A stretch of 39,560 bases of DNA. It comes from Chloroflexi bacterium OHK40 (lineage in GTDB: Bacteria > Chloroflexota > Chloroflexia > Chloroflexales > Chloroflexaceae). The DNA is taken from the NCBI GenBank assembly GCA_004367505.1, contig SFCB01000141.1:1-39560 (forward strand), read 5' to 3'. A model generated the notes under the pieces. That model saw nothing but the letters and a program-made list of their open reading frames with translations, had not been told where the DNA came from and ran no database searches. The position numbers were made by a program, and so were the translations under genes. Shown here in pieces: positions 10,635-39,555 of the stretch (the first letter of the stretch is position 1; each line of letters begins with the position of its first letter).

Positions 10635-12053
10635 ATGGCCCGCCAGCTCCTCGCGGGCGTCGCCCGCGCCGACATCACCCCACCCCACGGGATCGCCCAC
10701 GCCGGCTGGGGCGCCCAGACCCACCAGCGCGCCGCCGGGGTGGACCTCCCCCTCTGGGCGACCGCCCTCGCGCTATCCGATGGCGTCGAGACCGTCGTGA
10801 TCGTCGATCTTGATCTGATCTACCTCTGGGACACCGAGGCGCCCGGTGTGCTGCGCGCCGTCGAGCGCGCCACCGGCCTCCCGGCCTCCCACATCCGCCT
10901 CGCCTACACCCACACCCACTCGGGGCCGGTCAACGGCGCCACCTGGAGCACCTGGGTCAAGGATGGCGCCGAGATGGTGCCAGCCTACGACGCGATCCTG
11001 GAACAGCACATCGCCGGCGTCGCCCGCCAGGCGATCCGGCAGCTACGACCTGCCCGCTTTGCCACGGGCTCTGGCGAGGCGCGCATTAACGTCAACCGCC
11101 GTTTTCAGCGCCCCGAAGACGGCGCGGTGATCTGCGGGCGCAACTGGGAAGGCCCCGTGGATCGCCAGGTGCAAGTGCTGCGGATCGACGGCGCTGATGG
11201 CGCGCCCCTGGCTGTCCTCGTCAACTACGCCTGCCATCCCATCACCGTCGGCCCCGACTGCGACCTGGTGACGCCCGACTACCCCGGCGTGATGAAGCGT
11301 GTGGTGGAGCAGGCCACCGGCGCCACCTGCCTCTTCCTGCAGGGCGCCACCGGAGACCTTGGACCGATCCAGGGCTGTGCCCGGGGCGGGCTGGCGGAGT
11401 ACCGGCGCCTCGGTAGCATCCTCGGCCACGAGGCCAGCCGGATCTGGTGGGAGCTGGAACCACGGCAACGCCGCGAGCGCTACGCCGGCACCCTCGAGTC
11501 TGGCTCGCCCCTGGCGCTCTACGCGGATGAGGCGCTGCCCGATCTCGACGCCACCCTGCGCGTGGGCACCCGCGAGCTCCGCCTGCCCCTGAAGCCCTTC
11601 GCTCCGTCGGCGGAGCTGAGCGCAGCCACGGCGACACACGTCGCGCGCCTCGACCAGCTACGGGCCGCTGGCGCCGACCCCGAGGCCATCCGCGCCGAGA
11701 CGATGCTCGCCAAGCGCGCCGCCATGCGCGCCGACCTCGCCCGGCGCAACGAGGGCCACACCCACCGCGCCGTCACCCTCCAGACCTTCACCATCGGCGA
11801 TCAGGTCGCGTTGCCCGCCGTTCCCGGCGAACCGTTCTGCCAGATCGGCCTGCAGGTGAAGGCCGGCTCGCCCTTCCCTCACACGCTCTTCGCTGGCTAC
11901 GCGAACGTCGGCTGGGCCTACATCCCCACCGCCGACGCCTATCCCTTCGGCGGCTACGAGGTGGAGATCACGCCCTTCGCCCCCGAGGCCGCGACGATGG
12001 TGGTCGAGGGGAGCCTGGCCCTCCTGCGCGCCCTGGCGGCGGGAGGCCACTGA
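10635..12053 (+). CDS. Neutral/alkaline ceramidase-like hydrolase (N-terminal-domain family)
   Basis: A 472-residue member of the neutral/alkaline non-lysosomal ceramidase superfamily, carrying only the catalytic N-terminal domain. Seen: the family start GVARADITPPHG, the zinc-ligand segment YTHTHSGP (His93/His95) and NYACHPITVG with a further His, then DYPG and LFLQGATGDLGP. Shorter bacterial relatives of this kind often occur in carbohydrate catabolic clusters and have no proven ceramidase activity, so an amide or ester substrate other than ceramide is likely. No signal peptide is seen, so it should act in the cytoplasm. The start ATG at 10635 follows AGAGGAA. It ends with a TGATG junction to a tiny frame. 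Confidence 0.85.
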   Translation: MARQLLAGVARADITPPHGIAHAGWGAQTHQRAAGVDLPLWATALALSDGVETVVIVDLDLIYLWDTEAPGVLRAVERATGLPASHIRLAYTHTHSGPVNGATWSTWVKDGAEMVPAYDAILEQHIAGVARQAIRQLRPARFATGSGEARINVNRRFQRPEDGAVICGRNWEGPVDRQVQVLRIDGADGAPLAVLVNYACHPITVGPDCDLVTPDYPGVMKRVVEQATGATCLFLQGATGDLGPIQGCARGGLAEYRRLGSILGHEASRIWWELEPRQRRERYAGTLESGSPLALYADEALPDLDATLRVGTRELRLPLKPFAPSAELSAATATHVARLDQLRAAGADPEAIRAETMLAKRAAMRADLARRNEGHTHRAVTLQTFTIGDQVALPAVPGEPFCQIGLQVKAGSPFPHTLFAGYANVGWAYIPTADAYPFGGYEVEITPFAPEAATMVVEGSLALLRALAAGGH

Positions 12054-36689: not shown

Positions 36690-39083
36690 CTACGACACGG
36701 GCCAGGCGAGCAGGAGCGCGTTTAAGACACCAACGCGGAGCGGCCCGGCATTGCACACGTGGCGGAAGATGTAGCGGTACTGATCGCGCGGCACAGGCGT
36801 GGTGTGGGCGGCTCTGTTCCGCACCTTCACCACCGGGTCAAGCTGCTCGACAAAGTGGTCAAGGTCCACGGTGAACGCCGGGTCCTCGGGGTCAACCGCG
36901 CCATTCCAGACGCTCAGCACATGGTTCCGGATCGTCGCCCAGAGCGCGGGGTTCTTACTGCGCACACCAGCCAGTGAGCCCAGCGTGGGCTTGCCGAACG
37001 GGAAGTCGCTTGCGCTCACGCCGGGGATCGCCAGGATGCGCCGCTGGAGCTCGCGCTCAAGGGCCCGCGCGACGTGGATGATCGGCGCGGAGTAGTCCGG
37101 CGCGTTCACCGCATCGAGCTGGTCGCGCAGGTAGATCGCCAGGGCGAGCGACTCGCGCTCGGCTACGCCGAGGATCGTCAGCGTCCGGTCAAACCCGACG
37201 TCGCCGAGCTGCTTGTCATACGCGCTGAGGTTTTTGAGCGCCCCGGTGATGCGGGCAAACTGGCGGGTCAGGGCTTCGATCTGGCGGGCGACGGCGTCGA
37301 TCGATTCCTCCTCATCCAGGCTGTCCGGGTCGCGCGGGTCGAACAGCTGCTGGAGCTCTTTGAGCAACTCGTCTACGCTGCGTGGCGGACGCATCGGTGG
37401 CGCTGCCCCCGCCTGCCCGATGATATGGCACAGGCGGCCATCGCGACAACAGTGCTCGGCGCGGCTCACCAGGTCGACGCGCCAGGGGCCGATGTGCGGT
37501 TTCGGGCAAACCAGCAGGTCGTCCGGGGCGAGGGTGTCGCCGTACCGCCCCATCAGCGCCCCGCGCTCGGCCAGACTCAAGGTGTCGAGGAATACGCCCT
37601 GGCAGCGCGGGATACGCGGCATGCGGAGCCGAGCGTGCGCGCTATCTAGCAGCCCGGTAAGCGTCACCCGTAGCCCCTGGAGGCCGGTGTCCGGGCAGAG
37701 TGGCTGCACCACGACCTGCTGGTCCGGCACGATCGTCTGGTCACGGTCGGCAGGGCCGAGCCGGTAGCTCCCATCGCCTGTTGTAGCTGCCCCGGCGCCA
37801 GCCAGGAACGCGAAGAGCAATGTCCCGTGTCCCTCACCGAGCAGGGCGAGGTCGGCAATCATGCGCTTGATCGGCGACGAGGGCGCGTTCGGGCTTTCCC
37901 GCTCGCGGTAGTACTTCGCGTCCCACACGACGCCGGGCTCGCGCCAGAACAGCTCCGTGCCGTGCTCTACCCGCGCCGGTGGCGGGTCAACTCGCCAGAG
38001 GTAGAAGTCGGGGCGCACGCCCGGCACCGCGTACTTCTTGAGCGGCTGGGCACCCCAGCGCGCTGGCGGGAACGGTACACCCTGGTCGTGGCGGAGCTCG
38101 TAGGTTCGCTCGTCGTTGCCAAGGCCCCAGCGGAAGCGCAAGGCCATCTGACCCTGCCGGGGGTTGATGTGCTCCAGACAACCCCGCTCGCGCAGCAGGT
38201 CGGCGAGCTCAAAGAAGATCCAGATCTGGTAGAGGTAGTTATCGCGCTCGGGGTCGGCCCCCAGGACATCGTCGGCGGATGCCTGGTTGCGTTGCAGGAG
38301 CCGGAGGGCGCGCAGCCTCGCTCGCCAGGCGAGGAGATCTTCGTAGGCGCTGTTGCCGCCGGGGATGAGCCGCTCCTGGACGCGGTGCTCCAGCCCCTCG
38401 GGGCCGCCCTGGGCGCCGTCGAGGATCTGCTGCGCCGCGCCCCTGATACCCGCGAACTGGGGAAAGGCCAGCTCGCGCTCACAGCGCTCGATGAGCTCAT
38501 TGAGGGGGTGGCGCAGGGCCGCGCTGCCGGCAATGAGCTGCTCGTCCCAGAGCAGCCGCTCCGCCTCTGCCCGGAACCCCAGGAGCGTCACCACGGCGAG
38601 CAGGTTCTCGGGGGTGGCGAAGTCGCGCCGGCGCTGGCGGGTGTGGAGCAGCAGCGGCGCCTCGCCGGGGCGCTCGGCCCAGGCCGCGTCGATGCTGCGG
38701 CTCCAGTCGATCCGGCCCCGCGCGGGGGGCTCCTCGACGATCACGGAGCGTGGCGACTCGAAGCTCAGCCGCCGCACGATTCGCGGCAGGATATCCTCGA
38801 ACAGCTCGTCGCGCAGCACGAAGACCGCGCCCAGGTCGCGGTAGCGCTGCAACGCGGCATCCATCCGCTCGGCGGTGTAGCTCGCCCTGGCACCGATGTG
38901 CCGTCCGAAGCCGGCCTCGTCGTAGCGCAACAGCAAGGCCACCAGTCGTGCCTGCATCGCGCCGAACGCATCGCGTTCGAGGGCGGAGGGAGGAGGGCTG
39001 AAGGCGGAACGCTCAGGGCTGAGGGCGGAACGCTCAGGGCTGAGAGCTGAGGGCTGAAGGCTGATGTTGTTCCTCCTTCTCAT
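36690..39083 (-). CDS. PD-(D/E)XK nuclease-like protein with C-terminal RNxxxH (HEPN-like) region
   Basis: Large protein, 797 residues from the ATG at 39083, resembling DUF2357/McrC-type restriction proteins. Positions here are from the alternative GTG at 39089. GRIDWSRSI (125-133) and the RRRDFATPENLLAVVTLL block are typical of that group. The nuclease core shows RPDFYLW (Asp361) and VVWDAKYYRE (Asp390-Ala-Lys392), the PD...DxK pattern. A Cys/His-rich stretch (CPKPH, HCCRDGRLCH; 528-555) may bind zinc. The C-terminal helical region ends with KVRNRAAHTTPV, an Rx4H motif as in HEPN ribonucleases. The first 44 residues are encoded by minisatellite DNA (LSPERSALSPERSA), so the ancestral start may be the ATG at 38957. 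A defence role is inferred. It could be a single-component restriction or abortive-infection enzyme; no McrB-like GTPase is seen. Confidence 0.75.
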   Translation of the reverse strand: MRRRNNISLQPSALSPERSALSPERSAFSPPPSALERDAFGAMQARLVALLLRYDEAGFGRHIGARASYTAERMDAALQRYRDLGAVFVLRDELFEDILPRIVRRLSFESPRSVIVEEPPARGRIDWSRSIDAAWAERPGEAPLLLHTRQRRRDFATPENLLAVVTLLGFRAEAERLLWDEQLIAGSAALRHPLNELIERCERELAFPQFAGIRGAAQQILDGAQGGPEGLEHRVQERLIPGGNSAYEDLLAWRARLRALRLLQRNQASADDVLGADPERDNYLYQIWIFFELADLLRERGCLEHINPRQGQMALRFRWGLGNDERTYELRHDQGVPFPPARWGAQPLKKYAVPGVRPDFYLWRVDPPPARVEHGTELFWREPGVVWDAKYYRERESPNAPSSPIKRMIADLALLGEGHGTLLFAFLAGAGAATTGDGSYRLGPADRDQTIVPDQQVVVQPLCPDTGLQGLRVTLTGLLDSAHARLRMPRIPRCQGVFLDTLSLAERGALMGRYGDTLAPDDLLVCPKPHIGPWRVDLVSRAEHCCRDGRLCHIIGQAGAAPPMRPPRSVDELLKELQQLFDPRDPDSLDEEESIDAVARQIEALTRQFARITGALKNLSAYDKQLGDVGFDRTLTILGVAERESLALAIYLRDQLDAVNAPDYSAPIIHVARALERELQRRILAIPGVSASDFPFGKPTLGSLAGVRSKNPALWATIRNHVLSVWNGAVDPEDPAFTVDLDHFVEQLDPVVKVRNRAAHTTPVPRDQYRYIFRHVCNAGPLRVGVLNALLLAWPVS
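38980..39060. repeat. Minisatellite block 1, inside the 5' end of the nuclease-like gene
   Basis: Degenerate tandem repeats built from GGGCTGAGGGCGGA and ACGCTC, with a 21-base period for at least two units, then shorter CTGAGAGCTGAGGGCTGAAG-type units. Read on the minus strand it encodes the repetitive N-terminus of the nuclease-like protein. The same repeat family recurs at 39122-39162. Confidence 0.8.
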
Positions 39084-39121
39084 CACCACTACTCAATGCC
39101 TTTGCGCCGGAGCTTCCGAAC
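39059..39121 (-). repeat. 63-base duplication of the S23 gene's 3' end (copy A)
   Basis: Matches 39163-39225 (copy B) at 60 of 63 positions, 104 bases away in the same orientation. It holds the last codons and stop of a four-helix-bundle gene plus the region beyond, including AGAAGGAGG. Copy B is the real end of the intact gene; copy A is a fragment bounded by minisatellite on both sides. Confidence 0.85.
39089..39121 (-). pseudogene. Truncated 3' tail of a four-helix-bundle (S23/IVP) gene
   Basis: On the minus strand these bases read VRKLRRKGIE then TAG, against VRKLRRKGLA then TAG at the end of the intact gene. Upstream of the valine codon the sequence turns into minisatellite, so only the last ten codons survive. 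The stop lies just before the first possible start of the nuclease-like gene. Confidence 0.7.
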
Positions 39122-39162
39122 GCTGAGGGCGGAACGCTGAGGGCTGAGGGCGGAGGGCGGAG
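39122..39162. repeat. Minisatellite block 2, between duplicated S23 tails
   Basis: About 41 bases of the same repeat family as 38980-39060 (GCTGAGGGCGGAACGCTGAG, then GGCTGAGGGCGGAGGGCGG). It lies between the two 63-base duplicated segments. The direct-repeat units have no unique spacers, so it is not CRISPR. Confidence 0.75.
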
Positions 39163-39225
39163 GGCTGATGTTGTTCCTCCTTCTCATCGCCACTACGCAA
39201 GGCCTTTGCGCCGGAGCTTCCGAAC
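39163..39225 (-). repeat. 63-base duplicated segment (copy B), end of intact S23 gene
   Basis: Contains the last codons and TAG of the four-helix-bundle gene and about 30 bases beyond, with a strong Shine-Dalgarno-like AGAAGGAGG after the stop. Same as 39059-39121 except for three substitutions. Confidence 0.85.
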
Positions 39226-39555
39226 AGCCGAGGTGAACATCGCAATCAACTGGTTGGTTTCATCCAGGAGTGGGGCGAGGAGCGATTCGGCGACCAGACT
39301 GGCCTCGATCAAGAGCTCCAGCCAGTACGCGGTTTCGTCCAACTCTTGAATGCAAACATCAAACTTGGCAGCCATCTCGGCATTGCTTCGTCCACGGCTA
39401 CCTTCGCCGTAGTTGGCCCCGACTGAGGTGCCAGAGCGCAAGAGTTGCTGCCCGATGACCTGCGACTCCGGCTTCTTCGGTAGAGCGCCATAAAGCTTGA
39501 TGATCCGCAAGGCGTATGTCTTCGTCCGCTGCCTAAGAGGCGACTCTTGCTCCAT
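39193..39555 (-). CDS. Four-helix-bundle protein (S23 / rRNA intervening-sequence family)
   Basis: Small helical protein, 120 residues, complete, starting five bases from the window edge. Family motifs are RTKTYALRIIKLYGALPK, VIGQQLLRSGTSVGANYGEG, SNAEMAAKFDVCIQELDE and TAYWLELL. Members are encoded in rRNA intervening sequences, free-standing in many genomes, and in a relative (Avd) beside diversity-generating reverse transcriptases; no reverse transcriptase is in this window. The pentameric bundle binds nucleic acid in studied relatives. The C-terminus is basic (VRKLRRKGLA). Its end is duplicated at 39059-39121 and followed by minisatellite repeats. No Shine-Dalgarno can be judged because the window ends. 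Confidence 0.92.
   Translation of the reverse strand: MEQESPLRQRTKTYALRIIKLYGALPKKPESQVIGQQLLRSGTSVGANYGEGSRGRSNAEMAAKFDVCIQELDETAYWLELLIEASLVAESLLAPLLDETNQLIAMFTSAVRKLRRKGLA

Follow-up and report, generated by a model that had tools for sequence, protein, structure and literature searches.

A gene on the minus strand of the 39,560-nucleotide stretch of Chloroflexi bacterium OHK40 DNA analysed here (the window) encodes a protein that is probably one of the two halves of a restriction system which can attack both DNA and RNA. The reading we favour, with moderate confidence, is of a Type IV-like McrBC module in which this protein is the McrC-like subunit, and which would target modified or foreign DNA and use a HEPN RNase as a second effector. 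The gene is present in the window and its motifs are conserved, its relatives have a McrB partner, and DISARM-type genes are found as their neighbours. The features to which we refer are listed below, with residue numbers counted from the ATG at 38957 (755 aa).

36690..39083, minus strand, ORF of the McrC-like, PD-(D/E)XK, Cys/His and HEPN-like protein (797 aa from the ATG at 39083)
38292..38690, minus strand, region that aligns to DUF2357 proteins in their C-terminal half (residues 90–222 of 755)
37803..38240, minus strand, predicted PD-(D/E)XK nuclease domain (residues 240–385)
38007..38015, minus strand, RPD motif (residues 315–317)
37914..37922, minus strand, DAK motif (residues 346–348)
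37428..37604, minus strand, Cys/His cluster C452...C484-x-K-x-H488...C503...C510, invariant in relatives
36693..37202, minus strand, C-terminal HEPN-like helical domain (residues 586–755)
37056..37058, minus strand, E634, the invariant Glu of the HEPN-like domain, identified by conservation
36804..36821, minus strand, RNRAAH motif (R713, N714 and H718), identified by conservation
39193..39555, minus strand, 23S rRNA IVP / four-helix-bundle gene (PF05635, E 1.4e-18)

The ORF claimed in an earlier, sequence-only reading of this DNA does exist on the minus strand, with its stop side at 36690 and a start at either 39089 (GTG, 799 aa) or 39083 (ATG, 797 aa), and the D390/K392 and R757/H762 residues named there are correct in the 799-aa numbering, which is reached by adding 44 to the numbers used here. 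The first c. 35 residues lie inside a local repeat, which makes the start codon uncertain: positions 39050–39223 of the window hold a duplication, with copies c. 103 bp apart, of the IVP gene's 3' end and of the GGAGG/CCCTCAGC-rich stretch that follows it, and this duplication accounts for the repetitive Ser-Ala-Leu-Ser-Pro N-terminus of the ORF. The retention in relatives of ‘..ERxAFGAMQAR’, the residues just before 38957, favours the ATG at 39083 over that at 38957. All regions of the gene are under purifying selection, with dN/dS values of about 0.07–0.18 when the window is compared with one close relative, Candidatus Chloroploca sp. Khr17 (L004).

Our search found family matches in 30 of 400 Chloroflexota genomes, and profile searches were positive for 41/158 genomes across the class of the window and for 10/47 genomes in the class of G340, which carries a relative and belongs to a distant Chloroflexota family. 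We read 52 family members, consisting of 36 which were aligned (21–75% identity) and 16 further relatives. Beyond the Chloroflexota, the reach of the family was assessed only by scanning genome contigs for close relatives; a tblastn search of plasmids gave no match to the window protein, and the family profile found no relative in viral contigs. Single-sequence searches of Pfam, PADLOC, NCBIfam and the PDB with the window protein returned nothing, with no Pfam curated cut-off reached; consensus sequences compared with Pfam gave HEPN and PDDEXK_7 matches that were only weak, and neither a HEPN nor a nuclease chain turned up when profiles A1 and A5 were run against the PDB. We note that a broken remnant of the family C-terminal domain occurs elsewhere in the same genome (G000:C129:41241–41680; L035 about 11240–11680), sharing 56% identity and with its frame broken.

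The PD-(D/E)XK core of McrC/PDDEXK_7 type that had been read from the sequence is supported by profile comparison and by the conserved RPD and DAK motifs. Residues 1–540 gave hhalign values of 96.4% against PDDEXK_7 proteins and 97.2% against DUF2357–PDDEXK_7 proteins (score 94, shuffles reaching 21 at most), the RPD and DAK motifs aligning onto the PD and DAK of the DUF2357–PDDEXK_7 families, and the nuclease domain alone gave 95.8% against the same DUF2357–PDDEXK_7 proteins. Taken by itself, the N-terminal DUF2357 part matches weakly (19%, score 33.5 versus a shuffle maximum of 17.8), and in Pfam, PF04411 (PDDEXK_7) is weakly matched by 8/36 members (best E 0.0089) and PF09823 (DUF2357) by one (E 0.033). 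Both RPD and DAK are retained in 31 of the 36 aligned and 12 of the 16 further relatives, and since they are conserved in this way they are not a matter of chance. The Cys/His-rich stretch reported earlier also turned out to be a conserved cluster, with C452, C484, H488, C503 and C510 invariant in 36/36 aligned and 16/16 further relatives, and retained even in members which have lost the nuclease motif; this is probably a metal site, predicted to hold Zn or Fe-S.

Residues 586–755 probably form a HEPN domain, the evidence from sequence and modelled structure being weak but consistent. The RNRAAH motif proved to be conserved, with RNxxxH kept in 33/33 aligned and 15/15 further domain-bearing members, and it fits the HEPN R-x(4–6)-H motif. 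On this point the sequence-only reading thus passes the check that it had set for itself. E634 and RNxxxH are found together in all 48 domain-bearing copies, including all nine with the nuclease motif lost, and E634, R713, N714 and H718 (E49, R128, N129 and H133 in domain numbering) are invariant in the 33 aligned copies. Family members match the Pfam families HEPN_Swt1 (6 members), HEPN_RiboL-PSP (5 members, best E 7.4e-4), DUF4145 and Abi_2, with single-member matches to Cthe2314, MAE_28990, Apea and Csx1_HEPN, though these individual HEPN matches are weak and fall below curated cut-offs. Alignment to HEPN_Swt1 by hhalign scored 35 versus about 15, at most 15.5, for the best of 30–40 shuffles and 7–17 for unrelated profiles, and HEPN families gave values of 67–75%, a signal that vanishes once the RNxxAH helix is masked. 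AlphaFold models made from the window, L004 and L005 sequences (a full-length model was left out) were of low confidence, with pLDDT values of 53 (C-terminal domain) and 38. When the pLDDT 53 model was compared with the PDB using Foldseek, the first seven matches were all HEPN proteins, with E about 1, and the top eleven rows produced by VIA-align were HEPN toxins, HEPN-domain proteins or a known HEPN entry, led by 7ae9 (Z 7.4, rmsd 3.4, 121 residues) and followed by a hemerythrin at 5.6 (1wwp was counted as HEPN on the authority of PMC3710099). The HEPN claim of the sequence-only reading therefore gains from the motif, the Pfam families and the structural ranks, and is held back by the pLDDT of the model and the Foldseek E-values.

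The protein had also been described as being without a partner GTPase, a claim that is incorrect where the family is concerned. Of the 49 loci with readable 5' DNA, 47 have a McrB-family AAA+ gene immediately upstream, a count which includes near-identical loci and so not all independent ones. In the first set, where at least 1 kb of upstream DNA was available, the McrB-like gene is directly 5' in 33/33 loci and often shows a start–stop overlap, with intervening genes in L005 and L055 (the IVP gene) and in L066 (a 393-aa ORF). The second set has a McrB-like gene in 14/16 loci, and L175 and L179 are without a partner despite there being room for one. The top five matches of the partner profile to the PDB were all McrB (best E 2.2e-16), and Walker A, Walker B and the NxxD motif (NSFD) are nearly invariant in 30 partners. 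Five partners (L047, L061, L176, L178 and L184) have EVE and/or HARE-HTH domains at the N-terminus, domain types known to confer specificity in modification-dependent restriction (PMC7641849), and from these we infer that the module may cleave modified DNA in a GTP-dependent manner. No McrB-like gene is seen in the window, whose contig stops before such a gene could appear, 471 bp 5' of the ORF and just past the IVP gene; in L005 and L055 an IVP-type gene separates the McrB-like gene from the McrC-like one and has the same place 5' of the latter as in the window.

The survey of neighbours in other genomes that the sequence-only reading had suggested showed DISARM-type genes often beside the McrB/McrC-like pair. 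A Ktedonobacteria locus has DrmA (E 0) and DrmB (8e-79) upstream, with the same clusters recurring in six loci, and other relatives have a DrmMI-like N6-methyltransferase (2e-62) and HKD-SNF2/DrmD-like helicases (6e-58 and 3e-39) upstream. The window, up to the contig end, shows no Drm gene. The same survey removed the STAND-type regulator from the proposed architecture, as no neighbour cluster holds it; the STAND–LuxR gene of the window is not shared among the neighbours of relatives and is therefore incidental, and a STAND-linked defence unit was rejected because this gene is without a counterpart beside relatives.

The family is modular. The nuclease motif is lost in 9/52 members (L028, L039, L045, L046, L050, L179, L180, L183 and L187), all of which keep RNxxxH, and the HEPN-like domain is absent from 4/52 (L025, L027, L029 and L173), all of which keep RPD and DAK. 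No member is without both centres, but as only about 0.7 double losses would be expected and chance gives such a pattern around half the time, we rejected the reciprocal loss of the two catalytic centres as a statistical case as not significant. In the nuclease-dead pair L028/L045, dN/dS is about 0.23 for the nuclease region versus about 0.06 for the C-terminal domain. The C-terminal domain of the family also ends four large DrmMI-like methyltransferases or frame-broken copies (L169–L172), and E634 and RNxxxH are kept here too. These are DrmMI/Type IIG-like N6-methyltransferases of 1754–1873 aa (L169:7652–13270, L170:5636–10897, L171:6237–7460 and L172:5869–7242), and in L169 a HKD-SNF2 helicase gene follows the fusion. 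In one case, at L173:5541–9378, a CHAT plus ATPase gene comes immediately after a HEPN-less McrC-like gene, and this CHAT gene possibly encodes a protease effector that replaces HEPN.

We considered three other explanations of these observations. The gene in the genome of the window might be a solitary remnant or stand-alone effector whose McrB partner has been lost, which we regard as unlikely but worth keeping in mind: searches of the remaining assembly (G000) turned up no McrB-like or DrmMI-like gene, solitary copies do occur (L175, and L179 in which the nuclease motif is also lost), and the same genome holds the broken C-terminal fragment described above. However, the contig end lies just 471 bp upstream and an assembly of 301 contigs may miss the stretch in question, the closest relatives (L005 and L055) are ordered McrB–IVP–McrC with the IVP gene in the same place, and every motif in the window is intact.

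The two remaining explanations concern the C-terminal domain. Were it a HEPN-like domain used for dimerisation, for RNA or nucleotide binding or for regulation, and not as an RNase, the protein would simply be a McrBC-type DNA nuclease; non-catalytic HEPN domains are common according to PMC3710099, and the domain is dispensable in the four members that lack it. We nonetheless think this rather improbable, as the presence of E634 and RNxxxH in 48/48 domain-bearing copies and the methyltransferase fusions are hard to square with a mere scaffold. An alternative in which the helical domain has no relation to HEPN and bears its RNxxAH by coincidence would be in keeping with the low confidence of the AlphaFold models, with a sequence likeness that is confined to the motif helix and with a VIA-align Z of 7.4 that is within the range reachable by unrelated helical bundles, but several independent Pfam HEPN families match members, HEPN structures are top-ranked in both structural comparisons, and far lower scores come from shuffled or unrelated profiles, making such a coincidence very unlikely.

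Under our preferred reading of a McrC-like subunit with a HEPN RNase, a McrB-family AAA+ NTPase with variable DNA-sensing domains would assemble on DNA that is modified or otherwise foreign, and the DUF2357-like region of the McrC-like protein would dock onto this motor, after which the PD-(D/E)XK domain would cut the DNA. The Cys/His cluster may contact nucleic acid or hold the domains together, and the HEPN domain would cut RNA, from either phage or host, once the complex is switched on and so act as a back-up or abortive arm. Such a system would form a complex, use GTP, bind metal, cleave DNA and RNA, and defend against phage.

The module resembles the McrBC Type IV systems (PMC11090510) in that relatives have an adjacent NxxD McrB-family AAA+ gene, a McrC-like DUF2357/PD-(D/E)XK protein, EVE-type specificity domains and DISARM-like or methyltransferase neighbours, but differs in that the McrC of the family adds a Cys/His cluster and a C-terminal HEPN-like domain and has a Pfam McrC-type likeness which is visible by profile comparison only. 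CoCoNuT Types II and III-A similarly combine a McrBC core with a HEPN RNase, and in CoCoNuT systems with a dead or missing McrC nuclease, HEPN or other nucleases are always present (PMC11090510). However, CoCoNuT systems carry their HEPN on a distinct protein (CnuE) with a helicase, and a NxD McrB motif and coiled coils are characteristic, whereas this family has the NxxD motif and a HEPN-like domain fused to McrC; CoCoNuT membership was rejected because the 30 partners have the nearly invariant NSFD (NxxD) and not NxD. The DrmA–DrmB or DrmMI/DrmD-like genes upstream in many relatives recall DISARM (DrmA, DrmB, DrmC, DrmD and DrmMI), although the McrB–McrC–HEPN pair is not a DISARM component. 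HEPN-REase and HEPN-ATPase fusions of R-M systems, including the DUF499 systems, also place HEPN and DNA restriction parts in one chain or operon, but with other nuclease or ATPase partners, and no McrC–HEPN fusion is noted in the consulted parts of these sources (PMC3710099; PMC12839542). Nor did we find such a fusion described in the literature searched outside subscription journals and supplements. The earlier suggestion of an undescribed system has thus fared unevenly: McrBC modules whose NxxD McrB branches go together with DISARM-like or methyltransferase genes have been reported (PMC11090510) and HEPN-REase fusions are known in general (PMC3710099), while the McrC–HEPN fusion itself was not found described. 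We tentatively suggest that the family may be an undescribed McrBC-type class in which McrC has its own HEPN RNase, one motor serves two effectors that can be lost independently, and HEPN is swapped between McrC and the DrmMI-like methyltransferase.

If our reading is correct, one McrB motor would set off the cutting of DNA and of RNA alike by way of a single McrC subunit, so that restriction would be directly and physically coupled to an abortive or translation-blocking response. HEPN in R-M systems has been proposed to be a suicidal back-up RNase (PMC3710099), and the authors of the CoCoNuT work inferred two-pronged action from separate genes (PMC11090510); the fusion would make this testable via point mutations in one protein, and the family supplies natural nuclease-dead and HEPN-less versions. 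The occurrence of one HEPN module on either McrC or a DISARM-type methyltransferase would also run against the 2013 generalisation that HEPN domains in R-M systems are not fused to methylases, to which the table in the same paper already has occasional exceptions (PMC3710099).

Two further loci are of note. At L179:6788–10365, the nuclease-dead copy without a McrB partner adjoins a gene with a NAD glycohydrolase translocation-type domain, and in G340:C6 two systems (L044 and L045) are found c. 16 kb apart in one genome, one of them HEPN-less with an intact nuclease motif and adjoining DrmA–DrmB, and the other nuclease-dead with HEPN kept and adjoining a GmrSD gene.
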